Notes under the pieces: model-generated
The model's database searches: none
What the model was told of the DNA's origin: nothing
What the model saw: the letters and a program-made list of their open reading frames with translations, nothing else
Position numbers and translations under genes: made by a program
Assembly: GCF_003363265.1 (NCBI RefSeq)
Contig: NZ_QRBF01000003.1
Coordinates: 62,001-126,000 of the forward strand
DNA length: 64,000 bases
Direction: 5' to 3'
From: Dyella psychrodurans
GTDB lineage: Bacteria > Pseudomonadota > Gammaproteobacteria > Xanthomonadales > Rhodanobacteraceae
Shown here: piece after piece, positions 15,653-34,904 of the stretch
How the letters are laid out: every line of letters begins with the position of its first letter
Position numbering within the stretch: position 1 is the stretch's first letter

Positions 15653-15810
15653 GTCGACGACGGGCAGCATCACCCGCGCTGCACATGACCTGCGCCCTTC
15701 ATTAACAGACGTATCGCTTCTGCTTGTGCAGCGCGCTAACCACCCCGTATGCATACGTGCTAGAACACCGTATCTGCGCCGAAGAGGGTCGGCACGGGGG
15801 ATGGTGGGGC

Positions 15811-19590: not shown

Positions 19591-20225
19591 GCCGCCCCCT
19601 CATCGCGGCGCAGATCCCAAAGGTAATATCCGAATATCGCGCCTGCTATGAGGCCGGCAGCAAGCACTTTGAGCGCGAAGCGGGTGGTGATTTCGCCACC
19701 CAGAAAGCCATCAACCAATGTAATCAAATCACAAATAAGGACGACGGCCGCGACAAAAAGCGTGAGATACGTAAGCCACCGGCGAACGGCCGATTGCCGT
19801 TTTATCGCATGTTGCTTGAGTTCTCGTCCGATTTTTGCGGATAGCAGTAGAAAAACCGGGAATGCGATGACGATGGTGGCAACCGCCCAGCGGATATTTT
19901 CTTCAACGCCGTTGGCATACGGCAAAGCTGCATCCGGGAAACTGCGGTTGATCAGCTCAAATAGAAGAGTGCCAAGGTGATAAGCGCTCAGATAAAGCGT
20001 GGTAAACAGCACCAGATAGAGAAAGGCCTCCCGCGCCGATAAATAAGCACGCGGACGCGGCACGGGCACGGAAAAATCCACATCCGCATACGCCGCCATC
20101 GCACTTCGCGCCTGCTCCGGCGCCCAGCCTGCTTCAAACAACGCCTTTTCGATGCTTTGACGCGAACATCCGCGCATCAGCGCATCGCGCACGAACTGAT
20201 CCAGGTCCTGCGTCGCACCGGCCAT
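19587..20225 (-). CDS. DUF5671-like membrane protein
   Basis: A 212-residue protein. The N-terminal 45 residues form a small helical domain (LDQFVRDALMRGCSRQSIEKALFEAGW) of the kind that recurs at the front of such membrane proteins. Four hydrophobic segments follow (EAFLYLVLFTTLYLSAYHLG; WAVATIVIAFPVFLLLSA; WLTYLTLFVAAVVLICDLI; LKVLAAGLIAGAIFGYYLW). A LYLV...TLYLS helix followed by IRWAVA is typical of DUF5671. AGGGGG precedes the ATG at 20225. It overlaps the downstream 148-residue gene. Function unknown. The lower GC of this pair compared with neighbours is noticeable. Confidence 0.78.
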   Translation of the reverse strand: MAGATQDLDQFVRDALMRGCSRQSIEKALFEAGWAPEQARSAMAAYADVDFSVPVPRPRAYLSAREAFLYLVLFTTLYLSAYHLGTLLFELINRSFPDAALPYANGVEENIRWAVATIVIAFPVFLLLSAKIGRELKQHAIKRQSAVRRWLTYLTLFVAAVVLICDLITLVDGFLGGEITTRFALKVLAAGLIAGAIFGYYLWDLRRDEGAA

Positions 20226-20954: not shown

Positions 20955-22190
20955 ATGCGCAAGACCCACATGCTGATCGGCATCGCGCTGCTGCTGGCTG
21001 CCTGCAGTCACCAGGAGTCCGCTCAGCAAAGTCAGACGGATCAATCGTTCGAGAGTAAGCTCGAGCAGCAGTTGCTCGATGCCAAGCCCGGCAGCGTCAT
21101 CGACATTCCCGCCGGACACTACGCGTTGAAGCGCGGCCTGAGCCTGCGCACGGATGGCGTGACCATTCGCGGCGCCGGCATGGACAAAACGGTGCTGTCC
21201 TTCAAGGGCCAGGTCGTCGGCCCGGAAGGCCTGCTGGTGAACGCCAATGACTTCACCATCGCGAACCTCGCCATCGAAGACACGATGGGCGATGCGCTGA
21301 AGATCAATCAGGGCAGGAACATCACGATCCACGGCGTCCGCATCGAGTGGACGGACGGCCCCAGCAGCACCAACGGCGCATACGGCCTGTATCCGGTGAA
21401 AACGCAGAACGTGCTGATTGAAGATTCCGTGGTGATCGGCGCCTCGGATGCGGGCATCTATGTCGGACAGTCGAACGACATCGTCGTACGACGCAATCGG
21501 GCTGAACAGAACGTGGCCGGCATCGAGATCGAGAACTCGGTGAATGCAGACGTCTACGACAACACCGCCACCAAGAACACCGGCGGCGTGCTGGTCTTCA
21601 ACATGCCCAACCTGTCGCAGGCCGGTCACGCCACGCGCGTGTTCCACAACAAGGTGTTCGCCAACAACACCGGCAATTTTGCGAAAAAGGGCGCGGCCGT
21701 CGCCAGCGTGCCGGCCGGTTCGGGCATCGTCGTCAACTCCAACGACAAGGTGGAGATTTTCGACAACGACATCGCCGACAACCAGACGGCCAGCATCATC
21801 ATCTCCAGCTACTTCTCCACCAACTACTACAACACGCGCGGCGTCGCGGCCGATTACAACCCGTATCCGAAGGGCATCTACGTCTACGGCAACCGCATCA
21901 CCGGCGGCGGCGATTCGCCGGACGGTTTGAAGTTGAAGACACTGAAGACCGCCGTCTACGGTCTCACCGGCAAATTCCCAGACGTGGTCTGGGACGGCTA
22001 TGCCGATCCGAAGGATGTCGTGGATGGCCTGCCGCCGCCGAACGATCGCATCTGCATCCAGGATGTGAATGGCGTGCTGAACATCGACGGCCCGCATGGC
22101 TACAAGAGCCCGAGCACGGACACCAAAGCGTATCAGTGCACCTTGCCCAAACTGCCGCCGGTCGTGTTGAACCCGCAGCCGAAAGTCTGA
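20955..22190 (+). CDS. Parallel beta-helix repeat lipoprotein
   Basis: A 411-residue lipoprotein with a signal peptide and lipobox LLAAC (Cys17). The body is a right-handed parallel beta-helix with repeats such as GVTIRGAGMDKTVLSFKG, NITIHGVRIEW, NVLIEDSVVIG and DIVVRRNRAEQN, the fold of pectate-lyase-like proteins. The family is the one that typically lies next to SO2930-type diheme cytochromes, as here (12 bases to the next gene). The ATG at 20955 has AGGGGAGG upstream; the frame is open to 20808. Catalytic activity is unproven; an outer-membrane or periplasmic role linked to electron transfer is inferred from the conserved pairing. Confidence 0.88.
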   Translation: MRKTHMLIGIALLLAACSHQESAQQSQTDQSFESKLEQQLLDAKPGSVIDIPAGHYALKRGLSLRTDGVTIRGAGMDKTVLSFKGQVVGPEGLLVNANDFTIANLAIEDTMGDALKINQGRNITIHGVRIEWTDGPSSTNGAYGLYPVKTQNVLIEDSVVIGASDAGIYVGQSNDIVVRRNRAEQNVAGIEIENSVNADVYDNTATKNTGGVLVFNMPNLSQAGHATRVFHNKVFANNTGNFAKKGAAVASVPAGSGIVVNSNDKVEIFDNDIADNQTASIIISSYFSTNYYNTRGVAADYNPYPKGIYVYGNRITGGGDSPDGLKLKTLKTAVYGLTGKFPDVVWDGYADPKDVVDGLPPPNDRICIQDVNGVLNIDGPHGYKSPSTDTKAYQCTLPKLPPVVLNPQPKV

Positions 22191-22201
22191 GAGCGTTGTC
22201 C

Positions 22202-23362
22202 ATGCAGATGAAGATGTGGTTGTGCGGGGGAATGTTGCTTGCGCTGTTGTGCCTGTCGGGCTGTCATCGCGAGATGGATCCCGTCGCGTTTCACGACAGC
22301 GGCTATCCGCAAAAATTGAGCGACTGGCACGTGGTCGAAGCGCGCGACGGCGTCCTTCAGTTGAACGACGGCGTCGTGCCCTACGAACTCAACACGCCGC
22401 TGTTCACCGACTACGCGCACAAGCTGCGCACGATCTGGATGCCCAAGGGCGTATCGGCCAAGTACAACCCGACCGACACCTTCGATTTTCCGGTCGGCAC
22501 GATCATCAGCAAGACGTTTTTCTATCCGCTCCCCACAGGCGAGGCGCGCAACGCCACCGACTTGGCTCGCACGTACGACACCAGCCGCGACTTCGCAGGC
22601 CCGGGGCAAGGTTTGAAACTCGCCCATGTGCATCTGGTCGAGACGCGCCTTCTGGTGCGTCGCCAGGACGGCTGGGTGGCGATTCCTTACGTATGGAACG
22701 CAGACCAGACCGACGCCGTGCTCGCCCGCACCGGCGATGTGCAGGCATTGACGCTGGTCAGCGACAGCGGCGCGCGCGAAAACTTCAACTACGTCGTGCC
22801 GGACCAGAGCCAGTGCGTGAGCTGCCACGCACACGACTGGACGACGCGCGCGCTGCAGCCGATCGGTCCCAAAGCGCGCCATCTCAACCGCGACTACCGC
22901 TATGCGGACGGCGACGAGAACGAACTCGCGCATTTGATGCGCGTGGGCTATCTCACCGGCGCGCCTGCTCCGGCCGATGCGCCGCGCAATGCCAACTGGA
23001 TGGACAAGCATGCACCGCTCGATGCACGTGCACGCGCCTATCTCGACATCAACTGCGGTCATTGCCACAACCCGCAGGGCGCCGCGAATACCACCGGCCT
23101 GACGCTGGACATCGCCACGCCCGAAGATCACCACATCGGCATCTGCAAACCGCCGACTGCTGCGGGCCAGGGTACGGGCGATCACTACTTCGACATCGTG
23201 CCGGGTCATCCGGACGACTCGATCCTGCCTTACCGGCTCAGCTCCGCCACACCCGGCACGATGATGCCGGAGCTCGGTCGCAGCACCGTGCATCAGGAAG
23301 GCGTTGCGCTGATCAAGGCGTGGATCGCATCGCTACCCGGCGAGTGCGTGGTGCTTCATTGA
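22202..23362 (+). CDS. SO2930-family diheme c-type cytochrome lipoprotein
   Basis: A 386-residue lipoprotein (lipobox LSGC, Cys21) with two heme-binding motifs, CVSCH (Cys205) and CGHCH (Cys285). The N-terminal half has the conserved block VVPYELNTPLFTDYAHKLRTIW and FPVGTIISKTFFYP of this family, and the C-terminal end contains MMPELGRSTVHQEG, with a possible Met axial ligand. It follows the beta-helix lipoprotein by 12 bases. It probably passes electrons from an unidentified periplasmic oxidation. The partner enzyme is not known. Confidence 0.88.
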   Translation: MQMKMWLCGGMLLALLCLSGCHREMDPVAFHDSGYPQKLSDWHVVEARDGVLQLNDGVVPYELNTPLFTDYAHKLRTIWMPKGVSAKYNPTDTFDFPVGTIISKTFFYPLPTGEARNATDLARTYDTSRDFAGPGQGLKLAHVHLVETRLLVRRQDGWVAIPYVWNADQTDAVLARTGDVQALTLVSDSGARENFNYVVPDQSQCVSCHAHDWTTRALQPIGPKARHLNRDYRYADGDENELAHLMRVGYLTGAPAPADAPRNANWMDKHAPLDARARAYLDINCGHCHNPQGAANTTGLTLDIATPEDHHIGICKPPTAAGQGTGDHYFDIVPGHPDDSILPYRLSSATPGTMMPELGRSTVHQEGVALIKAWIASLPGECVVLH

Positions 23363-23417
23363 ACCGAGCGACTGAAGTGCAAAACGACCGCCATCATCGT
23401 CCCTTCCCTGGAGCATC

Positions 23418-24470
23418 ATGAAAGAAACGGCATTGGTCACCGGCGGCAGCGGCTTCGTGGCCAGCCATGTGATTCAGCAGCTGCTCCAGGCCGGCGACGC
23501 CGTTCACGCCACGGTGCGCAGTCTTGCCAACGAAGCCAAGATTCGCCCTCTGCGTCAGCTGCGACAGCAATTTCCCGATCAATTGCAGCTGTTCGAGGCG
23601 GATCTTCTCGCGCCAGGTTCTTTCGATACCGCCCTGAAGGGTTGCACCGTCGTTCACCACATTGCATCGCCCTTTTTGCTGCCGGAAAAAATCAAGGACG
23701 GCAAGCGGCAAATGCTGGAACCCGCACTGTTCGGCACCCAAAACGTGCTCGACAGCGTGAACCGGTCAAAGGACGTGCGACGCGTGGTGATGACCTCGAC
23801 GGTCGGCGCCATCTTTGGCGATTACATCGATGTGCTGGGCATGAAGGACCAGACGCTTGCGGAAAGCTACTTCAACACCAGCAGCACGATCGAAAACAAT
23901 CCTTACCACTACGCCAAGGTCGAGGCCGAGAAAGAAGCCTGGCGCATGTGCCGCGCGCAGGATCGCTGGAGCCTGGTCACCATCAACCCCGGCATGATTC
24001 TCGGGCCGTCGCTGACGCCCGCTTCGGAGTCGGGCAGCCTGTTTCTGCTCGACGAGATGTTCAAGGGCTACTTCTTTTACGGCATGCCGAATTTGAGCCT
24101 GACGACGGTCGACGTTCGCGAAGTCGCCACGGCGCACATCCACGCGGCGCGCCTGCCGCAGGCGCAAGGACGCTACATCCTTGCGGAGAAAGACATGATT
24201 TCCTTCGCGGAGATCTCCAAGATCGTCCGCAAGATTCACCGGCGCCCCTGGTTGCTGCCCAAGCATCAAGTGCCGGACACGGTGGTCAGGCTGATCGGGC
24301 CGTTCTTCGGATTGACGCAGGATTACATCCGCAAGCACCTGGGGATTCGCTTCAAGGTGGACAACCGCAGAAGCATCGACGAACTCGGCGTCGTCTATCG
24401 GCCGATCGAACAAACGCTGCATGAGCACTACCGCAGCTGGGCCGCACAACGCGCGGGTGCCACGGCGTGA
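23418..24470 (+). CDS. NAD-dependent epimerase/dihydroflavonol-reductase-like SDR
   Basis: A 350-residue extended SDR. It has the cofactor motif TGGSGFVASH near the N-terminus, then DLLAPGSFDTALKGCTVVHHIASP, the catalytic Ser/Thr region VVMTSTVGAIFG and the YHYAKVEAEK active-site Tyr/Lys. This pattern is shared by dihydroflavonol 4-reductase and aldehyde reductase homologues. TGGAG lies 7 bases before the ATG. It is the third gene of the unit with the beta-helix and cytochrome lipoproteins (55-base gap). Its substrate is unknown; reduction of a ketone or aldehyde intermediate is plausible. Confidence 0.88.
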   Translation: MKETALVTGGSGFVASHVIQQLLQAGDAVHATVRSLANEAKIRPLRQLRQQFPDQLQLFEADLLAPGSFDTALKGCTVVHHIASPFLLPEKIKDGKRQMLEPALFGTQNVLDSVNRSKDVRRVVMTSTVGAIFGDYIDVLGMKDQTLAESYFNTSSTIENNPYHYAKVEAEKEAWRMCRAQDRWSLVTINPGMILGPSLTPASESGSLFLLDEMFKGYFFYGMPNLSLTTVDVREVATAHIHAARLPQAQGRYILAEKDMISFAEISKIVRKIHRRPWLLPKHQVPDTVVRLIGPFFGLTQDYIRKHLGIRFKVDNRRSIDELGVVYRPIEQTLHEHYRSWAAQRAGATA

Positions 24471-24532
24471 ATCGGTGCGCGATGTCCCGCATGGCTCAAC
24501 AACGTGCGCGCGGAAACACGCGCCGATATGAC

Positions 24533-25213
24533 TCAGCGCGCCGCGTTGCCCTGCAGGCGCTGGATGTTGCTGGCCAGGCTCGCGGCGACGAGGCGCATTA
24601 CGGATGGCGCATCGAGCGCGGGATCGTCGAACAGCATTTCCAGCGCCGCGAAGGCCATGCTGTCCGCCACGCGGCTGATGAGTTGCAGTTCGCCCACCGG
24701 GATATCCGGAAAAGCTTCAATCAAACGCGCTGTGGCCTGAGTCGCGACCTCGGTCGCCGATTCGAGCCGGACATCCTGCAACATGGGAATCGCGCGCAGC
24801 GCGCGCATGATCCAGATGCCGCCCGTGGTTTTGCGCGTGATCTCGTAGGTTTCCAGCAGCAACCCCGTCAGCGCATCTTCCAGATGCCGGGCCGAGACAA
24901 ACGCCGCGGGCGTCAGCCACTGCGCAAGCAACGCATTCTGCTGGTGCATCAGGCGCAAGCCCAGCTCATGCAGCATGGCGTACTTGTTCGGGAAGTAGCG
25001 ATACAGGGCGGGCGGCGACAGGCCGGCACGCTGGCAGACCAGATTGGTGCTGAGCTGCTCGAAGCCCACCTCGGCCAGGGCCTGGGCCGTGACATCCAGC
25101 AAATGTTCGTAGGTTTCGGCGGCGCGGGGCTGTGCCGGCGTCACCTTGAGCGCCAGATCGAGCTTGGGGCGCTTGGCGCCGGGGCGGGGCCGCTTCTTGG
25201 TCGGGGCTGGCAC
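24533..25213 (-). CDS. TetR family transcriptional regulator
   Basis: A 226-residue regulator. After a basic, Pro/Lys-rich tail of about 25 residues comes the TetR helix-turn-helix (LLDVTAQALAEVGFEQLS ... RAGLSPPALYRYFPNKYAML). The C-terminal ligand domain is of the type found in many 'hypothetical' TetR proteins. It is convergent with the SDR and divergent from the seven-gene catabolic run starting at 25302. The intervening 88 bases carry palindromic AT-rich sites. It most likely represses the downstream operon and may sense its substrate or an intermediate. Confidence 0.9.
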   Translation of the reverse strand: MPAPTKKRPRPGAKRPKLDLALKVTPAQPRAAETYEHLLDVTAQALAEVGFEQLSTNLVCQRAGLSPPALYRYFPNKYAMLHELGLRLMHQQNALLAQWLTPAAFVSARHLEDALTGLLLETYEITRKTTGGIWIMRALRAIPMLQDVRLESATEVATQATARLIEAFPDIPVGELQLISRVADSMAFAALEMLFDDPALDAPSVMRLVAASLASNIQRLQGNAAR

Positions 25214-25247
25214 GAACGTGGGTCCTGGCTTTGGGGCTTGCGTGAAT

Positions 25248-25274
25248 TATAGCTAGAACTATATTGTAGCTAAT
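25248..25274. promoter_or_regulatory. Candidate TetR operator between divergent genes
   Basis: The AT-rich block holds an inverted repeat TATAG-CTAGAA-CTATA (25248-25263) and two TAGCTA hexamers with centres 17 bases apart (25250-25255 and 25267-25272). It lies between the TetR start (25213) and the kinase ATG (25302), the expected place for an autoregulatory operator. No binding data are implied. Confidence 0.5.
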
Positions 25275-25301
25275 ACTATCTTTTTGGGGAGCAAGTCATT
25301 C

Positions 25302-26930
25302 ATGCCCAGCACGGCGCAGGCCACCACGGCTTCCGGCAACGACCGCCTCGTTCTCGCGGTCGACCTGGGCACGTCCGGCTGCAAGTGCGCGCTCATCGGC
25401 ATGGACGGCCGCGTGCTGGCCTGGACCTTCCGCGCCGTCACGCTGCACCTGGTGGATGAGCTGGGCGTCGAACAGGACCCGCAAGACTGGTGGCACGCCT
25501 TTCTCGATGGTGCGCAGGAATTGCTCGCCGCGGATGCTCGCCGTCGTCAGCAGGTCATCGCCGTCTGTTGCTCGACCTTCGGCGAATGCACGATTCCGGT
25601 AGACGACGAAGGCAACGCGCTGTCGCGCGCGATGCTGTGGGTCGACATGCGCGGAGCGGATGCGATCCGTCGGCGCGCACGCAGCGGGCGCTTGAACATC
25701 CAGGGTTACGGTCCGCTCAAGCTCGCGCGCTGGCTGCGACTCACCGGCGGTGCGCCGTCGCTGTCGGGCAAGGATCCCGCCGGCCACATCGCCTGGCTCT
25801 ACGATCACCAACCGTCGCTGGTCGAGCGCACCGGCAAGTTTCTCAATGCGCTCGACTTCATGAACCTGCGTCTCACGGGCCGGTTTTGCGCAACCTACGA
25901 TTCCGCACTCACCACCTGGGCCACGGACAACCGCGATCTCTCGCAGGTGCGTTACGACGCGCGCCTGCTGCGCATGCTGGGGGTGGAGCGCGACAAGCTG
26001 CCCGAGCTTGTGCATTCAACGGAAGTGATCGGTCATCTGCTGCCCACCGTCGCCGAAACCCTGGGACTTGCGCCAGACACCAAGGTCGTCGCGGGCGCCA
26101 TCGACAATTCCGCGGCGGCGATTGGCGCGGGAACAGTGCGCGATCGCGAACTGCATCTGTATCTGGGCACCTCGTCCTGGCTCGGCGCGCACATGCCGAA
26201 AAAGCGCACGGACATCAACGCGTTCATCGCATCGCTTCCCTGCGCACAACCGGATCGCTATCTGGCCATGGCGATGCAGACCACGGCGTGCGGCAATCTC
26301 TCGTTCCTGCGCGATCGCATCCTGTTTCACGCAGATGAACTGCTGGGCGACGACCAGCGCATGGACGTCTATCCGCTGCTCGATCGCATCGCCGACCGCG
26401 TACCGCCGGGATCGCGCGGACTGATCTACATGCCCTGGCTGCTCGGCGAACGCACGCCGGTGGACGATCGCCATCTGCGCGCCGGCCTGTTCAATCTTTC
26501 GCTGGAACACACGCGCGAAGACATGATTCGCGCTTTCCTGGAAGGCGTGGCTCTGAATACGCGCTGGATGCTGGAGCCGATGCTCGACTTCATCGGCGGC
26601 GAACGCGGCGGCGCCATGACGATCGTCGGCGGCGGCGGCCAGTCGGATGTGTGGTGCCAGATGATCGCCGACGTCACCGGCATGGTCGTGCAGCAGCCAC
26701 ATGCGCCGATCCAGGCCAATGCGCTGGGCGCGGCCTTCATTGCGGGCATCGGCCTGGGCGAACTGACGTATCACGACGTGCCGACACTATGCCGGCACCG
26801 GCAACGCTTCGAACCGCGCCAAACCCTGCGCGGCCTCTACGACGATTGCTTCGGGACATTCAAGCAATTGCATCGGCAACTCGCGCCGATCTATCGCCGC
26901 CTCAATCAGCACCGGAGTCCGCCGCGATGA
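25302..26930 (+). CDS. FGGY-family carbohydrate kinase
   Basis: A 542-residue sugar or polyol kinase of the xylulokinase/glycerol kinase superfamily. The phosphate-1 motif LAVDLGTSGCKCALIG is near residue 20, the VVAGAIDNSAAAIGAG region falls mid-protein, and the C-terminal signature MTIVGGGGQSDVWCQMIADVTG is followed by ANALGAAFIAGIG. The ATG at 25302 has GGGGAG about 10 bases upstream. It opens a seven-gene run and overlaps the aldolase downstream as ATGA. It would phosphorylate an open-chain ketose or polyol. The substrate cannot be read from sequence. Confidence 0.92.
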   Translation: MPSTAQATTASGNDRLVLAVDLGTSGCKCALIGMDGRVLAWTFRAVTLHLVDELGVEQDPQDWWHAFLDGAQELLAADARRRQQVIAVCCSTFGECTIPVDDEGNALSRAMLWVDMRGADAIRRRARSGRLNIQGYGPLKLARWLRLTGGAPSLSGKDPAGHIAWLYDHQPSLVERTGKFLNALDFMNLRLTGRFCATYDSALTTWATDNRDLSQVRYDARLLRMLGVERDKLPELVHSTEVIGHLLPTVAETLGLAPDTKVVAGAIDNSAAAIGAGTVRDRELHLYLGTSSWLGAHMPKKRTDINAFIASLPCAQPDRYLAMAMQTTACGNLSFLRDRILFHADELLGDDQRMDVYPLLDRIADRVPPGSRGLIYMPWLLGERTPVDDRHLRAGLFNLSLEHTREDMIRAFLEGVALNTRWMLEPMLDFIGGERGGAMTIVGGGGQSDVWCQMIADVTGMVVQQPHAPIQANALGAAFIAGIGLGELTYHDVPTLCRHRQRFEPRQTLRGLYDDCFGTFKQLHRQLAPIYRRLNQHRSPPR

Positions 26931-27592
26931 AATTCGAGTCCATTCGTCGTCGCGTCGTCGAGATGAGCGTACTGCTGGCCGACCACGGCTACTTTGCCGC
27001 CACCGGCGGCAACCTGGCCTTGCGCGCGGACGATGAACACATCGTGGTAACGCCATCGGCCGTCGATTATTACCAGATGGGCCCGGAGGACATCTGCGTA
27101 CTGCGTTTGCGCAACCTGTCCAAGGTCGACGGCGAGCGCAAGCCTTCGGTGGAATCCGGCATGCACGCGCAGTTGCTACGCAAGCGCACGGATTGCTGCG
27201 CAAGCATCCACACGCACCAACCCGCGGCAAGTGCCTTGACCCTGCTTGGACAGCCGCTGCCTGTTCAACGCGCGAACCACCAGGCACTGCTTGGACCGCA
27301 GGTGCTGATCGCAGGCTACGCGCCATCCGGCACGCGTTGGCTATCCAGCAAACTTACTCGTGTGCTGCGCCCGGACGTCAACGCTTATCTGCTTCGCACG
27401 CATGGCGCGATCTGCTGCGGCGCCAGCCCCGAACGCGCGCTGCAAGCCATCGCCGCACTCGAAGCACTGGCCACGGCCTATCTGCGCGAACGCATCGCGG
27501 CCCGCGCCGCGCTCGCCACGCCCGAGCAAGGCGCGCTCAGGAAACTGATCGCCACGCTTGACGCGCATCCTGTTCAGGAGTTGATCGCATGA
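26927..27592 (+). CDS. Class II aldolase/adducin family protein (intact metal site)
   Basis: A 221-residue FucA/RhaD/AraD-type protein. The metal ligands are all visible, with HTH in CCASIHTHQPAAS, a third His in RTHGAICCG and the catalytic-acid Glu in VESGMHAQLL. The N-terminal GGNLALRADDEHIVVTPSAVDY matches the substrate-phosphate loop of the family. It overlaps the kinase before it and the aminotransferase after it by ATGA. With an FGGY kinase upstream it probably cleaves, or in some members epimerises, a phosphorylated ketose. Which sugar is unknown. Confidence 0.9.
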   Translation: MKFESIRRRVVEMSVLLADHGYFAATGGNLALRADDEHIVVTPSAVDYYQMGPEDICVLRLRNLSKVDGERKPSVESGMHAQLLRKRTDCCASIHTHQPAASALTLLGQPLPVQRANHQALLGPQVLIAGYAPSGTRWLSSKLTRVLRPDVNAYLLRTHGAICCGASPERALQAIAALEALATAYLRERIAARAALATPEQGALRKLIATLDAHPVQELIA

Positions 27593-29064
27593 ACGTCAAA
27601 CAGACTTCCGACACCCTTCCGGCGAGCAGCGCCATTTCCCAATGGCCTGACACCGACGCGCTCTACCGTCGTTTCGATGCGCTGGTGAAGCAACCGATCC
27701 GTCCGCTGCGGCGCGATGCGATGGAACAGGTGCTCAACTATTTCGAGCAACGCTGCCAGACCTCCAAGCGCATGGCCGAGCAGGCCAAGCACGTCATTCC
27801 CGGCGGCGTGCAACACAACCTCGCCTTCAACTATCCGTTCCCGCTTGCGGTCACGCAGGTCAGCGGTGCGCATATGACGGATGCGGACGGCAATCGCTAC
27901 ATCGACTTTCTGCAAGCCGGCGGACCTACCCTGCTCGGCTCCAACTATCCCGACGTGCGCGCGAAGGTACACGCGCTGCTGGAGGAATGCGGCCCGGTCA
28001 CCGGCCTGCTGCACGAGTACGAGATCAAACTCGCGGAACTGGTGTGCGACGCAATGCCCGGCGTCGACATGCTGCGCATGATGGGCTCGGGCACCGAAGC
28101 GGTGATGGGCGCGATTCGTCTCGCGCGTGCGTATACCGGCAAGAAACGCGTGATCAAGATCGGTGGCGGCTATCACGGCTGGAGCGATCAGATGGTCTAC
28201 GGCATGCGCCTGCCCAATACCGGGCGCATGGAAGCCATCGGCATTCCGCGCGGCGCAACCGCCACCACGCAGGAAAGCCTGCCGAACGATCTGGCGGCGA
28301 TCCGGCGCAAATTGCAGTGGAACCGTTTGCGCGGCGGCACGGCGGCGATCATCGTCGAGCCGTTCGGCCCCGAAAGCGGCACGCGGCCCGTTACCAAGGA
28401 TTTCAACGCGCAGCTTCGCCGGTTGTGCGACGAGTTCGACGCGCTGCTGATTTTCGACGAAGTGGTCACCGGCTTCCGCGCCGGCATGGGCGGAGCGCAA
28501 GCGTATTTCGGCGTCACGCCCGACCTCACCATTCTCGGCAAATGCCTTACCGGCGGTTATCCCATGGCCGGCGCGATCGGTGGCAAGCGCGAGATCATGA
28601 TGATGCTGGTCGGCGGCATCGGCACGACCGCCAAGCGCGCGTTCGTCGGCGGCACGCTCACGGCCAATCCGCTGTCTTGCGCAGCGGGTTATTTCGCGTT
28701 GCAGGAAATCCAGCGCACGGATGCCGCAGCGAAAGCCGGTCGCGCGGGCGATCGCCTGCGCCAGGGTCTTGAGCAGATCATCGAGCGCCTCGGCCTGCCT
28801 TATGTCGCCTACAACATGGGCTCGATCGTGCACCTGCAAACATCCGGCGTGATGCTGCTGGACACCAGCAACCTGCTCAAGCTCGTGCGCCTTAAGAACG
28901 AAGCCAGGCAACGCAAGCACATGATGGAGGAGATGGGTGCCGCCTACGCGGCGCATGGCCTGATCACGCTCGCAGGCAGCCGCATCTATACGAGCCTCGC
29001 CGATACCGATGCGGTGATCGACGACGCGCTCAATCGTTTCGAAGACGTGCTGAAACTGGTGTGA
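27589..29064 (+). CDS. Class III aminotransferase (GSA-aminomutase-like)
   Basis: A 491-residue PLP enzyme of fold type I. The cofactor lysine is Lys318 in LGKCLTGGYPMAGAIGG. The conserved Asp-Glu pocket is LLIFDEVVTGFR, and the phosphate-binding region is MMGSGTEAVMGAIRLARAYTG. It is closest in style to glutamate-1-semialdehyde aminomutase/omega-aminotransferase proteins but has an extra N-terminal 70 residues. It overlaps both neighbours. A transaminase inside a kinase-aldolase operon is unusual and suggests an amino-substituted sugar or polyol as substrate. This is an inference. Confidence 0.92.
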   Translation: MNVKQTSDTLPASSAISQWPDTDALYRRFDALVKQPIRPLRRDAMEQVLNYFEQRCQTSKRMAEQAKHVIPGGVQHNLAFNYPFPLAVTQVSGAHMTDADGNRYIDFLQAGGPTLLGSNYPDVRAKVHALLEECGPVTGLLHEYEIKLAELVCDAMPGVDMLRMMGSGTEAVMGAIRLARAYTGKKRVIKIGGGYHGWSDQMVYGMRLPNTGRMEAIGIPRGATATTQESLPNDLAAIRRKLQWNRLRGGTAAIIVEPFGPESGTRPVTKDFNAQLRRLCDEFDALLIFDEVVTGFRAGMGGAQAYFGVTPDLTILGKCLTGGYPMAGAIGGKREIMMMLVGGIGTTAKRAFVGGTLTANPLSCAAGYFALQEIQRTDAAAKAGRAGDRLRQGLEQIIERLGLPYVAYNMGSIVHLQTSGVMLLDTSNLLKLVRLKNEARQRKHMMEEMGAAYAAHGLITLAGSRIYTSLADTDAVIDDALNRFEDVLKLV

Positions 29065-29705
29065 CGCCGATGCCGCTCTCGAACCTGCTCGAAGACGCGA
29101 TACATCGCCTGGACGGCAAGCATCTGCTCGGCGCCGATGCCAGCGTATCCGTGCGGCTGCCCGGCACGCAGGACATGTTGCTGGGCGCGCCAGGAAAGAC
29201 GCCGTCGCGCGTACCGCTTACTAGCGGCAACGAGAACACCGAACACGCATGGCATGCCGCCGCCTATCGCGCTCGCGCGGACATCGGCGCGATTGCCTTG
29301 GGCGGCGGCTTCTATGGCCGCAGCCTTGGCGACTTCGGCGGCGACCTGCCGCAAGTGTTCGACGAACAGGCGCGGCATCTGGGGCGCGCATCGTTGCCGC
29401 TGGCGCAGATGGCCGGCGATCCCGAAGCCAGTGCGCAGCGCTGCCTGGCGACGCGCGGCAACGCATGGGTTTGCGGGCACACCGTGCTTGTGTTCGGCAG
29501 CACCGCACAACGTCTGGTGCTCAACGCCGAACTGCTGGAGAAATGCGCAAAGGCTTATGTGCTGGCCACGGCAACCGGCGCGCCGATCCACACCTTGCCC
29601 TGGTGGGTATGCCGCATCGCCAACGGACGCCTGAAGAAGGACCAGCGGCGTGCCGGCGAACGTTTCGCACAAGGATTGCTACCTGAAGAAGTGAAAGGCT
29701 ACTGA
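29061..29705 (+). CDS. Class II aldolase-fold protein lacking metal ligands
   Basis: A 214-residue paralogue of the aldolase two genes upstream. It keeps the fold markers (DASVSVRLPGTQDMLL, then SGNENTEHAWHAAAYRARADIGAIAL). Where the active family has HTH it has GGG in IALGGGFYGRSL, and the third His is Arg in ATRGNAWVCG. A catalytic metal site is therefore not expected. A role as accessory subunit, binding protein or non-metal enzyme is possible. The GTG at 29061 overlaps the previous stop (GTGA); ATG 29070 is an alternative. It ends 48 bases before the MFS gene. Confidence 0.85.
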   Translation: MTPMPLSNLLEDAIHRLDGKHLLGADASVSVRLPGTQDMLLGAPGKTPSRVPLTSGNENTEHAWHAAAYRARADIGAIALGGGFYGRSLGDFGGDLPQVFDEQARHLGRASLPLAQMAGDPEASAQRCLATRGNAWVCGHTVLVFGSTAQRLVLNAELLEKCAKAYVLATATGAPIHTLPWWVCRIANGRLKKDQRRAGERFAQGLLPEEVKGY

Positions 29706-29753
29706 GGTGAGCGATATGCAACGGCCCCGAGCGCACAACAGCGAGATACGCCC

Positions 29754-30941
29754 ATGACGACATCGGTCTCGATCAGCTTTCGTCGCTCCGAAGTCGTAGC
29801 GGCCCTCGCCATGGGCTGCGTGGCGCTGATGATGCTCGGGCTGCAACCTGCTTTGCTTGGTACGTTGATCGAGCAGCGACGCATTTCGATGGAAGGCGTC
29901 GGCATCGTCGCCATGGGCGAAATTTTCTCGCTCGGCATCGGCGTCGTACTGGCCGAGAAGCTGTTGCCTTTGCATCGCATTCGCCCGGTCGCGATCGTCG
30001 GCTGCGTGTTGCTGGCGGCAGTCAATCTGCTGACCCTGAGGGTGCATGGCGATGCCGCCTGCACCGCCGTGCGCGTGATGGCGGGCCTGCTTGAAGCGAG
30101 CCTGTTCTGGATTACCACCATCGTGATCGTGCGCTCGCGCGAACCGGATCGACTGGCCGGCATCTTCCTCACGGTGCAGACGCTTACGCAGGCGTTCGTG
30201 ATGTTCGCGATCGCCCGGCTTCCGCTCCATTTCCTGGGTTGGCAGGCGGGATTCGTCGTGCTGGCGCTGGTCTGTCTGCTGCCGTTGCTGGTCAGCTACC
30301 GTCTACCCGGACAAGTTGGATCGCATACCGATGCCATCATGCCTTCGGTGGTTTCCCTGCGCGGCTTTTTTGCCTTGCTGGTGCCGTTCGCGCATATGAG
30401 CGCGATCGGTACGCTTTGGGCTTACCTGGAACCGCTGAGCAGGAACGCAGGCGTCATCGGCCGCAATGCGGATACGCTGGTCGCGCTGGTGTTGCTGATG
30501 CAGGTTGTCGGCGGCAGCGTCGCCGCGATGGCGGTGCGCCGATGGCGCATCATGCCGGCCCTGGCGTTCAGCGCTGCGATCGTGGCGGTCATCGGCATGG
30601 CCATCCATCGCCTTCCTTCGCCCAGTCCATGGGGTTTCACGGCGTTGTGCGCCGTGTTGGGTTTTGTATGGTTGTTCCAGCTGCCGTTTCACATCCGGCT
30701 CGCGTTCGATATCGATCCGCGCGGGCGCATCGCCCTGCTGGCGCCCCCGGCCCAGTTGTTGGGCTCCGGATTCGGGCCGCTGGCGGCTTCTTTTAGCGTG
30801 CACGGCGACGATGTTCAGCGCATACCGCTGATCGCGGCGGGATTCGCGGTGTGCGTGGTAGTGGCACTTTTGTTGGTGAAGTATCGCGCTCCTTCCGGCA
30901 ATGGGAGAGGGGTTTTGGCCGGGGGCGAGCACATCAAATAA
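29754..30941 (+). CDS. MFS transporter
   Basis: A 395-residue membrane protein with about twelve hydrophobic segments in two halves, the usual Major Facilitator layout, and charged loops such as VRSREPDRLAG after helix 4. It resembles uncharacterised sugar/aromatic-acid-type permeases. The gene follows the aldolase-like gene by 48 bases on the same strand and precedes the TonB receptor by 57. It likely moves the operon's substrate across the inner membrane, working with the outer-membrane receptor. Substrate unknown. Confidence 0.85.
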   Translation: MTTSVSISFRRSEVVAALAMGCVALMMLGLQPALLGTLIEQRRISMEGVGIVAMGEIFSLGIGVVLAEKLLPLHRIRPVAIVGCVLLAAVNLLTLRVHGDAACTAVRVMAGLLEASLFWITTIVIVRSREPDRLAGIFLTVQTLTQAFVMFAIARLPLHFLGWQAGFVVLALVCLLPLLVSYRLPGQVGSHTDAIMPSVVSLRGFFALLVPFAHMSAIGTLWAYLEPLSRNAGVIGRNADTLVALVLLMQVVGGSVAAMAVRRWRIMPALAFSAAIVAVIGMAIHRLPSPSPWGFTALCAVLGFVWLFQLPFHIRLAFDIDPRGRIALLAPPAQLLGSGFGPLAASFSVHGDDVQRIPLIAAGFAVCVVVALLLVKYRAPSGNGRGVLAGGEHIK

Positions 30942-30998
30942 ACCCGATGCATCGACTTTGAGGGGCGATGCCATTCGAAGAATTTAGGGGAGAACAAC

Positions 30999-33482
30999 AT
31001 GACGATGCGGCAACGTACGCTTTCCACTTGCATGCACCAAGCACTGTTCGGTGGTGCAGCGCTGTTCCTTTGCGCATTCTGGTCGTCCGGCGCGCACGGA
31101 GCGCCGCAGGACACGGGCAACAATCCGCCTGCCACCAAGCCCGCTGCGAACAAGTCTGCGCCTGACGCAAGCCAGGCCAAGCAACTGGGCAATATCACGG
31201 TCACGGCGCAAAGCCGCACGCAGCAGATGGAACAGGTGCCGATTCCGCTGCAGATCCTCACGGCCAAGCAGATCGACACGCAGGCGGCCACGGACTTGAG
31301 CAAGATTTCCTTGTTCGTGCCCGGGCTCGTCGTGGACGGCAGCCAGCCGACACAGCCGAATTATTCGCTGCGCGGCATCAGCACGAGCGATTTCGGCATC
31401 GGCACGGAATCGGCCGTCGGCGTCTATATCGATGGCGTTTATGCCGCGCGCTCCGGCGGCGCGCTGCTGGCGTTCAACGACATCGACCGCATCGAAGTGC
31501 TGAAAGGTCCGCAGGGTACGCTGTTCGGGCGCAACGCGGCGGGCGGCGCGATCTCCATCGTCACCAACGAACCCACCGATACGTTCGAAGGCAAGGCGGT
31601 GCTGCGCTACGGCAACGATGGCGAACGCTACGAAAGCGCGCTGGTCAACATTCCGATCAACAAGGACATGGCGCTGCGCGTCAGCGTGCTGGACAACCAG
31701 AGCGACGGCTGGATCAAGGACCAGGCGACCGGCCAGCACTACGGCAAGAACGACGACTGGGGCAGCCGCATGGTGTACCGCTGGAACATCACGCCGGATA
31801 CCCGCCTGTTGTGGTCATGGGATCACGAACGGCTCGATCAGCCCCCTCGACCGGCCATCGGGCTGGTGGCGCTGTCCAACGACACCAACCAGCGCCCGCC
31901 GTTTCCGCCCAATCCGCAAACCTACCTCAACCCGCTGACCGCACCGCTCTACAACGATGCGATCGGTGCGGCCGAGTGGCGTCACTTCGACGGCTCCACG
32001 CTGATCATCGATCACTCCTTCCCATGGGGGAGCTTTACCTCCACCACCGCGTGGCGTCACTTCAACACCTACAACGCCGAAGACAACGACGGTACCGATC
32101 ACGTCGTCAGCTACCTGGCCACCACCAACATCGAGCACAACAACAGCTACTACCAGGAATTCAAGCTGGCCGGCGACAACGATCTGATGGACTGGGTGTC
32201 GGGCGTGAGCTTCTATTCGGAGCAGGCGCGCCAGAGCAGCGTGGTCAATACCAACACCAACAGCCTCGATACCTTGGCGCAGAACGTAGACAACCAGGGC
32301 CTGCCGCTGACCGAGATTACCCAGGGACTGCAGTCGTTCGGCCTGCCGTACAACCTGCTGGGCGATCCGTGGCAGGAGGAAATCAACAACGTCGGCAGGT
32401 TCAAGGCGTATGCCGCTTTCGGCGACGTGATCTGGCACCTCAGCGACAAGCTGGACCTCACCACCGGCCTGCGCTACACGGAAGATCAGAAGGACTTCAC
32501 GTGGCTCACGCCACTACGCACGGCCACCGCCTTCGACCAGACCGTCGCCGAGCTCAAATCCACTGGCATCTTCGGCCTGCTGCCACCCGATGCGCAGCAA
32601 GCGCTGAATGCATTCGGCACGAACATCGTGTTTCCCAACGACGTGGGGCAATGGGTGCAGGCCAATCACAGCTGGCATGACTTCAGCCCACGCGCGGTAT
32701 TGAGCTACAAGTTCACGCCGAACGTGATGGCGTACATGTCCGTCACCAAGGGTTACAAGGCGGGCGGCTACAACAGCCTGCAAGTAGGCTCGCTGTACGC
32801 GCCGGAAAAAGTGTGGAACTACGAAGGCGGCATCAAGACCGTGGTGCCCGAGTATGGCCTGATCTTCAACGCATCGGCGTACTTCTACCGCTACACGAAC
32901 CTGCAATCGTCCGTCCTCGATCCCAACTACACCGGTTCGGGCGTGCCGTTCTATACCGTGATGACCAGCGACCAGCACGCGCACGGCCTGGATGTGGAAG
33001 CGCAGTGGCAGCCGGCCGACTCGCTGCGCCTGAACTTCACCAGTGCGTACATCGACAGCACCTATATCAAGGGCATTTCCACCTCGGGAGCGAATCTCGC
33101 GGGGCAGCCCACCGGAGAACCGTTCTTCTCGTCGACCGCGGGTTTTGACTACACCTGGTTCGGGGTCCACAACGGCAACCTCGAGTTCAGCATGCAATAC
33201 GCCTACCGCGGCCCCACCCGCTGCAACGCGGATTCGGGTTTCCAGGGCACCTGCCTTACGACGCCGCTGTTCAGCGTGGGGACCTCCACTCAACGCACCG
33301 ATGCCCGTCTCGACTGGCATACTCCTGACCAGCGCTGGGGCGTGGGGCTGTACGTCAACAACATGTTCAACAAGCGCTACGTGGTCAGCATCGGCAACGA
33401 CGCCACCAACGACTTTGGTACGCCTTACGCAGTCATTACGCCACCACGTGTATACGGTGTGGAACTGAGGGCCAAATTCTGA
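30999..33482 (+). CDS. TonB-dependent receptor
   Basis: An 827-residue outer-membrane receptor. An N-terminal signal segment (ALFGGAALFLCAFW) is followed by a likely TonB box in LGNITVTAQ and a plug domain with YSLRGISTSDFGIG, VGVYIDGVYAAR and RIEVLKGPQGTLFGRNAAGGAI. A long beta-barrel follows, ending in the aromatic residue (GVELRAKF). AGGGGAG lies 6 bases before the ATG at 30999. It is of the FecA-like or carotenoid/aromatic-associated type rather than a classical siderophore receptor. It is probably the outer-membrane entry step of this operon. The coniferyl-aldehyde-type dehydrogenase starts only 6 bases after its stop. Confidence 0.93.
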   Translation: MTMRQRTLSTCMHQALFGGAALFLCAFWSSGAHGAPQDTGNNPPATKPAANKSAPDASQAKQLGNITVTAQSRTQQMEQVPIPLQILTAKQIDTQAATDLSKISLFVPGLVVDGSQPTQPNYSLRGISTSDFGIGTESAVGVYIDGVYAARSGGALLAFNDIDRIEVLKGPQGTLFGRNAAGGAISIVTNEPTDTFEGKAVLRYGNDGERYESALVNIPINKDMALRVSVLDNQSDGWIKDQATGQHYGKNDDWGSRMVYRWNITPDTRLLWSWDHERLDQPPRPAIGLVALSNDTNQRPPFPPNPQTYLNPLTAPLYNDAIGAAEWRHFDGSTLIIDHSFPWGSFTSTTAWRHFNTYNAEDNDGTDHVVSYLATTNIEHNNSYYQEFKLAGDNDLMDWVSGVSFYSEQARQSSVVNTNTNSLDTLAQNVDNQGLPLTEITQGLQSFGLPYNLLGDPWQEEINNVGRFKAYAAFGDVIWHLSDKLDLTTGLRYTEDQKDFTWLTPLRTATAFDQTVAELKSTGIFGLLPPDAQQALNAFGTNIVFPNDVGQWVQANHSWHDFSPRAVLSYKFTPNVMAYMSVTKGYKAGGYNSLQVGSLYAPEKVWNYEGGIKTVVPEYGLIFNASAYFYRYTNLQSSVLDPNYTGSGVPFYTVMTSDQHAHGLDVEAQWQPADSLRLNFTSAYIDSTYIKGISTSGANLAGQPTGEPFFSSTAGFDYTWFGVHNGNLEFSMQYAYRGPTRCNADSGFQGTCLTTPLFSVGTSTQRTDARLDWHTPDQRWGVGLYVNNMFNKRYVVSIGNDATNDFGTPYAVITPPRVYGVELRAKF

Positions 33483-33488
33483 GCCGCC

Positions 33489-34904
33489 ATGAACAAGCCA
33501 GACACGCTCGACCTGCCCAGTGAACTCAAGCGCCTGCGCGAGGTGCAATCGCGCGATCCGCTGCCGGGATGGCAGACCCGCGAGCGGCGGCTGCGCGCGC
33601 TCGAAGCCGTGGTTCTCCAGCACCGCGACGAGATCGCCGAGGCGATCAACGCGGATTTCGGCTGCCGCCCGCGCGAGGAAACCGAGATGCTGGAGATCTT
33701 TCCCAGCGTCTCGGGCATTCGCCATGCCTTGCGTCACGGCCGGCGCTGGATGAAGCCGCAGCGCTCGATGGCGAGCCTGGCGTTTCTGCCCGCACGAACG
33801 GAGATGCGGCCACAGCCGCTGGGCGTGGTCGGCATCATCGTACCGTGGAACTATCCCTTGCTCCTCGCCGTGGGTCCGATGGTTGACGCACTCGCCGCCG
33901 GCAACCGCGTGATGGTCAAGATGAGCGAATACACGCCGCGCTTTTCAGAGCTGTTCGCCGACCTCGTCGCACGCCATTTTCAGCCCGACGAAGTGATCGT
34001 GGTCAACGGCGATGCGTCAGTAGGTCAAACCTTCGCCGGACTGCCGTTCGATCATCTGCTGTTCACGGGCTCTACGGCGGTGGGGTATCACGTGATGCGC
34101 TCCGCCTCGGCGAACCTCACGCCCGTCACGCTGGAACTGGGCGGCAAGTCGCCGGCCATCATCGGCCCCGGTGCGCGTTTCGAACATGCGGTGGAACGCA
34201 TCGTCTTCGGCAAGATGGTCAATGCGGGGCAAACCTGCATCGCGCCGGATTACGTGCTGCTGCCGCGCGCGGATGTGGACCGCTTTACCGCCGCCGCGCG
34301 CGACACCGTAAAGCGCCTGTATCCGGACATCGCCAGCAGCAAGCAATACGCAAGTATCGCCACGGACCGCCACTATCAACGCCTGTCCGGCCTGCGCGAC
34401 AGCGCGGTGGCCGCGGGCGCGCGCGGCGAACGCTTGAGCGATGCCATCGATCAGTCCACGCAGCGCCTTCTTACGCCGATGCTGCTGACCGACGTGAACG
34501 ACGACATGGCGGTGATGCAGGAAGAAATCTTCGGGCCGCTGTTGCCGCTGGTGCCTTACGACAACTTCGGCGATGCGATCGACTACGTTGTCGCGCGCCC
34601 GCGCCCGCTGGCGCTATATCTGTTCGAGGAAAACCAGGCTCGAATCGATCAGGTGCTGTCGCGCACGCACGCGGGCGGTGTCAGTCTCAACGACACGCTG
34701 TATCACATCGCGCAACATGGCCTGCCGTTCGGCGGCGTGGGACCTTCGGGCATGGGCGGATATCACGGAGAAGCAGGCTTCCGGACGTTCTCGCACTTCA
34801 AGCCGGTGTTTCGTCAGGCACGTCTCAATGGCACTGGGTTGCTCAATCCGCCTTATGGCAAGCGTTTCCGGCAGATGCTGGAGATCCTGCTGCGTCGAGG
34901 CTGA
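33489..34904 (+). CDS. Coniferyl-aldehyde-type aldehyde dehydrogenase
   Basis: A 471-residue NAD(P)+-dependent aldehyde dehydrogenase of the class-3-like branch. Landmarks are VVGIIVPWNYPLLLAVGPMV, FTGSTAVGYHVM, ELGGKSPAIIG and the catalytic Cys250 in NAGQTCIAPDYV, plus the C-terminal GGVGPSGMGGYHG. The family oxidises coniferyl or other aldehydes to acids. In this operon it could oxidise the aldehyde left by aldolase cleavage. It is the last gene; a strong terminator lies about 45 bases further on. Confidence 0.9.
   Translation: MNKPDTLDLPSELKRLREVQSRDPLPGWQTRERRLRALEAVVLQHRDEIAEAINADFGCRPREETEMLEIFPSVSGIRHALRHGRRWMKPQRSMASLAFLPARTEMRPQPLGVVGIIVPWNYPLLLAVGPMVDALAAGNRVMVKMSEYTPRFSELFADLVARHFQPDEVIVVNGDASVGQTFAGLPFDHLLFTGSTAVGYHVMRSASANLTPVTLELGGKSPAIIGPGARFEHAVERIVFGKMVNAGQTCIAPDYVLLPRADVDRFTAAARDTVKRLYPDIASSKQYASIATDRHYQRLSGLRDSAVAAGARGERLSDAIDQSTQRLLTPMLLTDVNDDMAVMQEEIFGPLLPLVPYDNFGDAIDYVVARPRPLALYLFEENQARIDQVLSRTHAGGVSLNDTLYHIAQHGLPFGGVGPSGMGGYHGEAGFRTFSHFKPVFRQARLNGTGLLNPPYGKRFRQMLEILLRRG

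Follow-up and report, generated by a model that had tools for sequence, protein, structure and literature searches.

The Locus and Its Genes

The 64,000-nucleotide stretch of DNA from the soil bacterium Dyella psychrodurans analyzed here (the window) lies on a single contig of a 4.54 Mb genome and carries an operon in which an FGGY-family kinase, a class II aldolase in two parts, and a class III aminotransferase (AT) are encoded together. From sequence and gene association, on which all functional assignments below are based, we consider it probable that this core serves the breakdown of sphingoid bases, with kinase, transaminase, and aldolase steps standing in for sphingosine-1-phosphate (S1P) lyase. 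The nearest named relatives of the kinase are those of Dyella flava, D. acidiphila, and D. mobilis. The core genes, together with the aldehyde dehydrogenase (ALDH) proposed to act with them, are as follows.

24533-25213, minus strand: TetR-family regulator (PF00440), divergent from the kinase gene
25302-26930, plus strand: FGGY-family kinase (Pfam FGGY_N/FGGY_C), proposed sphingoid-base kinase
26927-27592, plus strand: ald1, class II aldolase (PF00596), predicted metal and glutamate half of the active site
27589-29064, plus strand: AT, class III (HemL-like) aminotransferase dependent on pyridoxal phosphate (PLP) (PF00202), proposed sphingoid-base-1-phosphate transaminase
29061-29705, plus strand: ald2, aldolase-fold partner without the metal site (FDEQ and KDQ/KDE motifs), predicted neighbour half of the active site
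29754-30941, plus strand: major facilitator superfamily (MFS) transporter (PF07690, 31.6 bits, slightly below the 33.4 cut-off)
33489-34904, plus strand: ALDH3-type aldehyde dehydrogenase (PDB matches), proposed fatty-aldehyde dehydrogenase

The sequence-only reading of this DNA had described a seven-gene run at 25302-34904, flanked by the TetR gene and by genes for a beta-helix protein, a cytochrome, and a short-chain dehydrogenase/reductase (SDR), and all of these are present at those places. The overlaps that it saw joining kinase, ald1, AT, and ald2 are borne out by the coordinates, each being 4 bases long (26927-26930, 27589-27592, and 29061-29064). It had also remarked on a missing isomerase, and no aldose-ketose isomerase is found among the genes of the run; the logic that it proposed, a kinase, an aldolase, and an ALDH with a transaminase in the isomerase's place, is consistent with all later findings.

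Membership in HemL, FucA, and the known sugar-kinase families was considered and is not supported, as all scores fall under the NCBIfam cut-offs. The kinase is below the cut-off of 12 of the 12 NCBIfam kinase models that it matched, AT reaches 280 of 527 bits with the HemL (glutamate-1-semialdehyde aminomutase) model and misses its curated cut-off, and ald1, with 61.7 of 400 bits, misses that of the curated FucA model. A PDB search with the MFS transporter gave no match up to E 0.1. The best PDB match of the ALDH is a steroid aldehyde dehydrogenase (9nxl), and it also matches a fatty aldehyde dehydrogenase (4qgk, E 1.1e-89); by sequence, its ALDH3 type and the latter match point to an enzyme of the fatty-aldehyde dehydrogenase (FALDH) type.

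Conservation of the Core and Its Variable Surroundings

Twelve window proteins were compared with 109 loci. The sequence-only reading had looked to gene order in relatives as its check, and there the core recurs beyond chance: TetR (minus strand), kinase, ald1, AT, ald2, and MFS stand in the same order in eight named Dyella loci (L030-L036 and L042) and in L037. L033 starts at the kinase, its upstream side being cut, so the TetR side is not visible there. Amphritea (L038) and Rhodoferax (L039) have the same core, but there DUF2147 and TorF genes separate the kinase from TetR, and the core is also found in a Vitreoscilla metagenome-assembled genome (MAG) and on a Burkholderia plasmid, with shorter forms in Chloroflexota and Bacillota. 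The MFS gene accompanies the core in 11 loci besides the window. AT is the best-conserved core gene, at 73-93% identity within Pseudomonadota and 64-67% to Chloroflexota. Its orthologues (≥86% identity) occur in 7 of the 117 Rhodanobacteraceae genomes searched, the window's own genome counted; at strict thresholds, a sample of 369 genomes from the class yields the kinase in one, the window's own, and 399 genomes from the order to which Rhodoferax L039 belongs yield AT in one, that of L039 itself. Among 97 genomes of the class of a Syntrophomonadaceae MAG (L059), AT (E <= 1e-140) is present in 14, the MAG included. The 14 stretches taken from the 13 other genomes contain a kinase in 11 cases, an aldolase in nine, and a lyase in none; the three without a kinase are cut by contig ends.

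The genes also occur on plasmids. On a conjugative plasmid of a Burkholderia ambifaria rhizosphere isolate (L166), the order is TorF, DUF2147, SDR, MFS, IS5, TetR, kinase, ald1, AT, ald2, SDR, ALDH, which places the MFS gene on the opposite side of TetR from the kinase; identities to the window are 62% for the kinase, 49% for ald1, 79% for AT, 50% for ald2, and 40% for the ALDH. A rumen plasmid of Butyrivibrio fibrisolvens carries kinase, aldolase, GtrA, and AT (57%), with an ALDH past an IS66 element. As a separate observation, a Lokiarchaeota locus (L045, 1738-5013) holds AT (41%) and kinase (40%) in divergent orientation, so the pair extends to archaea.

Around the core lies a variable accessory layer, which comprises the TonB-dependent receptor with the ALDH, and the beta-helix/cytochrome pair. 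Its genes in the window, with the accessory SDR and apart from the ALDH listed above, are these.

20955-22190, plus strand: parallel beta-helix lipoprotein (TIGR03805, 421 bits against a cut-off of 141.5)
22202-23362, plus strand: SO2930-family diheme c-type cytochrome (TIGR03806, 399 bits against a cut-off of 313)
23418-24470, plus strand: extended SDR, HpnA-like (under the cut-off)
30999-33482, plus strand: TonB-dependent receptor (PF00593, PF07715)

Both pairs, receptor plus ALDH and beta-helix plus cytochrome, stand around the core in the window, L030, L031, and L036, and neither is seen around it in L034, L035, L042, or the visible part of L033; in L032, the start of a receptor gene stands at the contig end (partial). 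The receptor and ALDH, which had been read as part of the run, are indeed present in the window but belong outside the conserved core. Four Dyella loci, the window's among them, have an ALDH with the core, as do Amphritea and the Burkholderia plasmid. Locus L040 contains kinase-ald1-AT-ald2 and, nearby, a TonB receptor (42%), a diheme cytochrome (52%), and a beta-helix protein (61%). Because the beta-helix/cytochrome pair also stands beside the core in this distant locus, it is probably associated with it; the sequence-only reading had suggested a second operon there that may add a periplasmic oxidation. The SDR is 74% identical to that of Amphritea L038, which in turn shares 69% with that of plasmid L166. 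The FadL gene (36572-35004) was excluded as part of the system, as it adjoins the ALDH in L031 too and not in L030 or L036. Near this FadL-type porin gene, on the opposite strand, 37007-40495 encodes a 1162-residue protein of many ankyrin repeats, and a DUF5671 protein (19587-20225, minus strand) is encoded immediately upstream of the beta-helix gene.

Partners of the Kinase

In the Chloroflexota locus L044, the kinase adjoins a gene whose closest solved relative, from which we name it, is the S1P lyase 3mad (E 2.8e-195). With the L044 kinase as the query (E <= 1e-100), matches were obtained in 47 of 298 genomes of its Chloroflexota class. The partner beside the kinase is the S1P-lyase homologue in 38 of these genomes and AT in eight, and no genome has both there; in the remaining one (G758, with L137 and L187) the stretch ends at a contig edge. 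The first 30 loci, taken with ∼1.5 kb on each side, gave 21 lyase, eight AT, one neither, and none with both, and the remaining 17 genomes were all of the lyase kind. All seven of the longer Chloroflexota AT loci (L153 and L155-L160; L154 is cut) have ald1 and a divergent TetR gene with AT and kinase. Genome-wide, AT (E <= 1e-120) occurs in 10 of 49 kinase-bearing genomes, namely the eight AT genomes and those of L041 and L043, and is absent at this threshold from the other 39. The lyase (E <= 1e-20) is missing in five of the eight Chloroflexota AT genomes and reaches only 39-45% identity in the other three; three lyase genomes searched alongside gave 65-67%. S1P lyase has no match in the window's own genome at E <= 0.001 and none in six Dyella genomes at E <= 1e-20; the query of this latter search did find matches in 6 of the 18 genomes that it covered.

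Five lyase loci (L136, L179, L184, L185, and L186) have a 26-30% match to the window ALDH near the kinase-lyase pair, and kinase, lyase, and aldehyde dehydrogenase together are the textbook layout for sphingoid-base breakdown. Since S1P lyase requires a base-1-phosphate, the product of the kinase is most likely a base-1-phosphate. The sequence-only reading had placed transamination before phosphorylation; the reverse order is most likely, because relatives of the kinase pair with a lyase that acts on phosphorylated bases.

A kinase tree of 69 rows, with labels set by hand and the root at the midpoint, unites the lyase-linked L044, L126, and L128 and the main AT side in one clade of 27 rows (100/100), within which the 23 AT-linked rows and L043 form a clade of their own (100/99). 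AT-linked kinases stand elsewhere in the tree as well, in Lokiarchaeota (L045) and in a Bacillota pair (L059/L167). The AT label needs at least three changes over the tree, and the lyase label four, of which three are forced by the starred branches; the lyase-linked rows L161 and L162 are long branches whose placement is unsure. At L162 (5914-11027), a GntR/UTRA regulator, an FLVCR-like MFS transporter, an S1P-lyase homologue, and a distant FGGY kinase (32%) stand in series, and the genome of L162 (G495) holds three kinase-lyase pairs. In another group of loci (L046, L047, L048, L050-L053, L057, and L062), kinase relatives adjoin a saccharopine-dehydrogenase-like gene (49-74% to that of L047; L050 only partly).

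A Proposed Split Aldolase

The ald1 proteins of 21 loci (11 Pseudomonadota, eight Chloroflexota, and two Bacillota) and the ald2 proteins of 11, a subset of those available, were aligned to E. coli FucA. The intact metal site that the sequence-only reading had noticed is retained in the window ald1: FucA residues E73, H92, H94, H155, and N29 are all present there, and they are identical in 21 of the 21 ald1 rows. None of the 11 ald2 rows keeps H92, H94, H155, or N29, and three have Glu at position 73. Two other FucA residues, Y113 and Y209, are both mutated in deposited FucA structures, judging by the structure titles, and we take them to reach the active site from the adjoining subunit. These positions are Asp in all eight Chloroflexota ald1 and all 11 ald2 rows and in none of the 11 Pseudomonadota ald1 rows; the two Bacillota ald1 rows have Asp at 209 only. 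The window ald1 has lost the Tyr113 and Tyr209 positions, and ald2 holds Asp there.

As judged by this alignment, the single Chloroflexota protein bears both putative halves of the active site, and the ald1/ald2 pair of Pseudomonadota divides them. The two halves are complementary, and an ald1:ald2 heteromer is therefore predicted. An AlphaFold structure prediction, made for ald2 alone, has a pLDDT (predicted local distance difference test) of 90 and a class II aldolase fold, with FucA among its best PDB matches. The aldolase of the Bacillota locus L059 is 419 residues long and, from the alignment, looks to have a second, degenerate domain. If the heteromer prediction is correct, the aldolase pair would clearly exemplify duplicates that have each lost a complementary part of an active site formed at a subunit interface.

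TetR and Its Proposed Operators

The gap between the TetR and kinase genes contains two copies of a near-palindrome.

25249-25262, plus strand: proposed TetR operator copy 1, ATAGCTAGAACTAT
25266-25279, plus strand: proposed TetR operator copy 2, GTAGCTAATACTAT, starting 17 bases past the start of copy 1

The operator pattern has two matches in the window against 0.23 expected, and 1 of 100 shuffles reached two; the pattern was drawn after the sites had been seen. Because this chance figure is not independent, the support for the operators lies in the same gap of other loci, where ATAGTNATNACTAT or a sequence one or two changes from it recurs. It is found exactly, at two sites each, in the gaps of L038 and L166, and L039 has one exact site and one with a single change. 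Seven Dyella loci (L030-L032, L034-L036, and L042) and L037 have at least one gap site with one or two changes. No operator-like site is found in L040. One two-change match lies outside the gap in L030, and L032 has an extra operator-like site at 7538 (one change) directly ahead of its SDR gene. A divergent TetR gene is likewise present at the Chloroflexota AT loci.

Links to the Pseudomonas Sphingosine Genes

In PMC11893366, the P. aeruginosa sphBCD genes are described as encoding a cytochrome c, a TAT-secreted oxidoreductase, and a predicted PLP-dependent aldolase; the same paper reports that sphBC are required for sphingosine metabolism, that their products are periplasmic, and that the bacterial product is unknown. 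The available part of PMC13293705 holds nothing on these enzymes. In our reference P. aeruginosa record sphR is annotated, and SphB, SphC, and SphD were assigned here by position and product: past a transporter gene from sphR come a DSD1-type PLP enzyme, a D-arabinono-1,4-lactone oxidase, and a cytochrome c5, which we take as SphD, SphC, and SphB, respectively.

Homologues of SphB, SphC, and SphD stand in that order and on the same strand behind MFS-ALDH in Amphritea L038 and behind MFS in Rhodoferax L039. Their identities in L038 and L039 are 38% and 37% for SphB (over 75-81 residues), 45% and 48% for SphC, and 49% and 53% for SphD. When the SphC-like protein of L038 was compared with eight matched plasmid records, the P. 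aeruginosa gene was the nearest at 45%, followed by one at 39%. In L038 the genes from DUF2147 (8337) to SphD (19797) lie on one strand throughout, with exact operators ahead of them at 8272-8302. One of the records with sph genes, L168 (NZ_CP070468.1), a 93 kb entry from P. aeruginosa with a plasmid label, also has housekeeping genes such as pyrE, rph, and argB and resembles a piece of chromosome or an atypical replicon.

A possible second link is a regulator upstream in the window.

15724-16890, plus strand: AraC regulator, the genome's nearest SphR relative

This protein is the best SphR homologue of its own genome (34%, E 3.4e-54; the runner-up has 2.3e-27). It is 40% identical to the AraC protein beside the core in L040, which is itself SphR-like (40%), and relatives of it are found upstream in L030 and L036.

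Proposed Pathway

From the genes, their conserved order, the AT or lyase homologue beside kinase relatives, the sphBCD homologues in two relatives, and the two aldolase halves, we infer a route with its substrate, step order, products, heteromer, and preference for 4-hydroxy bases. The FGGY kinase would phosphorylate the C1 hydroxyl of a sphingoid base, and the HemL-like AT would then convert the C2 amine to a ketone, giving a 1-phospho-2-keto-3-hydroxy compound that would resemble a ketose-1-phosphate with an alkyl tail. The ald1:ald2 class II aldolase would cut between C3 and C4 to dihydroxyacetone phosphate (DHAP) and a long-chain aldehyde, which the ALDH3-type dehydrogenase would oxidise to a fatty acid. 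On chemical grounds, a 1-phosphorylated 4-hydroxy base minus its C2 amine, CH2OP-CO-CHOH-CHOH-R, should be cleavable by FucA-type aldolases. Because the retro-aldol cleavage needs a C4 hydroxyl, phytosphingosine or a different base hydroxylated at C4 is the most likely natural substrate. Sphinganine and sphingosine were dropped as substrates of the aldolase step, as their transaminated forms carry no hydroxyl in the beta position relative to the ketone. The sequence-only reading had no substrate to name; the gene association now indicates sphingoid bases, most simply a 4-hydroxylated one such as phytosphingosine.

A phospholyase activity, which among class III enzymes is represented by ethanolamine-phosphate phospholyase, was set aside for AT because it would leave the class II aldolase and the ALDH without a role. 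A single case from the class of L059 bears on the AT product: in L215 (6805-11181), one run holds AT, an FGGY kinase, and, between the two, an MtnW-like RuBisCO homologue (380 bits with PRK09549 against a cut-off of 409). Because MtnW is the enolase of a diketo-1-phosphate, this arrangement suggests, by analogy, a keto-1-phosphate as the product of AT, on which the RuBisCO-like enzyme possibly acts.

Several observations weigh against a role in sphingoid-base breakdown. SphB, SphC, and SphD have no match in the window at E <= 1e-8, and sphBCD homologues stand beside the core in only two loci (L038 and L039). The replacement of lyase by AT is imperfect at the genome level: three of the eight Chloroflexota AT genomes hold an S1P-lyase homologue (39-45% identity), the Rhodoferax L039 and Syntrophomonadaceae L059 genomes each hold one at 41%, and that of Lokiarchaeota L045 one at 28%. 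The saccharopine-dehydrogenase-like neighbour in the nine loci described above indicates that not every kinase relative is sphingoid-linked. Sphinganine and sphingosine are without the 4-hydroxyl that the aldolase step requires, and the MFS transporter linked to the genes in Chloroflexota resembles FLVCR choline/ethanolamine carriers, which also fits a small polar amino alcohol. Finally, a search for neutral ceramidase (PF04734) gave no match in 26 Rhodanobacteraceae genomes, the window's own among them, but none in 14 controls either, which makes it uninformative.

The FLVCR-like transporter speaks for an alternative in which the substrate is a water-soluble 2-amino-polyol, such as an amino-alditol, with the same head group; the kinase would act on C1, the lyase homologue or AT plus aldolase would cleave the product, and the hydrophobic context would be incidental. 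FGGY kinases and class II aldolases mostly act on sugars and polyols, which also counts for it. We nevertheless regard this as unlikely, given the sphBCD homologues behind the core in two loci, the SphR-like AraC, the FALDH-like ALDH, the close S1P-lyase partner, and the occurrence in the Syntrophomonadaceae MAG L059, Syntrophomonadaceae being fatty-acid oxidisers. A different chemistry within sphingoid-base catabolism would admit all bases, with or without a 4-hydroxyl, if, for example, AT makes the 2-keto-1-phosphate and ald1 is an MtnB-like dehydratase/isomerase that feeds further steps. Aldolase-fold class II proteins do include dehydratases (ald1 scores 74 bits with MtnB against a cut-off of 137), and the MtnW-like protein of L215 occupies the aldolase's position; the FucA metal and glutamate set retained in ald1 and the ALDH at the Dyella, Amphritea, and Burkholderia loci, which fits the release of an aldehyde, make this version improbable.

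More distant still are two explanations that depart from lipid breakdown. Siderophore logic, with AT installing an amine and the MFS transporter and TonB receptor exporting and retaking a metabolite, would make this a biosynthetic cluster, and the receptor reaches 155 of 223.5 bits with a siderophore receptor model, below its cut-off. The run has no assembly-line or ligase genes, however, the receptor is not seen in four of nine Dyella loci (the window included), and the interchange with a lyase indicates catabolism; we consider a biosynthetic role very improbable. Scarcely any weight can be given to the breakdown of an aromatic amino-diol, such as chloramphenicol base, to an aromatic aldehyde that the ALDH oxidises. 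The head group is a 2-amino-1,3-diol, and the nearest NCBIfam model of the ALDH is the benzaldehyde dehydrogenase MdlD (306 bits, below the cut-off of 550), yet these substrates are without a 4-hydroxyl, the lyase and sphBCD links are left unexplained, and presence in Chloroflexota and Lokiarchaeota speaks against a xenobiotic.

Relation to Known Systems and Implications

Sphingoid-base catabolism as proposed here would share with the eukaryotic-type degradation (sphingosine kinase, S1P lyase, and the fatty aldehyde dehydrogenase ALDH3A2) the phosphorylation of the base and the liberation of a long-chain aldehyde that an ALDH3-type enzyme then oxidises. It would differ in that the kinase belongs to the FGGY family, S1P lyase is absent from the window's genome and replaced by a transaminase and a class II aldolase, and the predicted small product is DHAP rather than phosphoethanolamine. 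The Pseudomonas SphR regulon (sphA and sphBCD) resembles the Amphritea and Rhodoferax loci in the SphB, SphC, and SphD homologues and the window in the SphR-like AraC; sphBC, however, act in the periplasm according to PMC11893366, whereas the core enzymes here are predicted to be cytoplasmic and the window is without an SphB, SphC, or SphD match. With the L-fucose and L-rhamnose pathways (isomerase, kinase, class II aldolase, and ALDH), the locus has in common an FGGY kinase, a FucA-type aldolase, and aldehyde oxidation, but a transaminase stands in the isomerase's place, the aldolase is in two subunits, and the kinase and ald1 fall below the NCBIfam sugar-pathway cut-offs.

What we propose as new is a form of sphingoid-base catabolism whose central steps, as read from the genes, are novel and whose kinase comes from a family not expected in this role. 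The titles and abstract openings of the papers listed by searches of an open-licence library gave nothing on the gene set, on a bacterial FGGY sphingoid kinase, or on phytosphingosine breakdown by a transaminase and an aldolase, which is not proof of absence. According to PMC5234717 (2016), no enzyme other than S1P lyase is known to take sphingoid bases irreversibly out of the sphingolipid pool. In its widest form, to which we would give an even chance, our proposal is that bacteria, and perhaps archaea, have a second irreversible sphingolipid exit, made up of an FGGY sphingoid-base kinase, a base-1-phosphate transaminase, and a two-subunit heteromeric class II aldolase, which would convert plant and fungal 4-hydroxy bases to DHAP and odd-chain fatty acids across Pseudomonadota, Chloroflexota, Bacillota, and a conjugative plasmid, and that this kinase family is the sphingosine kinase so far missing in bacteria, which would supply their S1P lyases with substrate.

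If true, a lipid pool previously believed to have a single way out would have two. A lyase-free route and a candidate kinase for the bacterial S1P lyases make the questions of the sole exit and of the sphingosine product testable with four small proteins. Because sphingoid bases are antimicrobial, as PMC11893366 states, such a route would also matter for the way in which bacteria of soil, rhizosphere, and rumen cope with these compounds.

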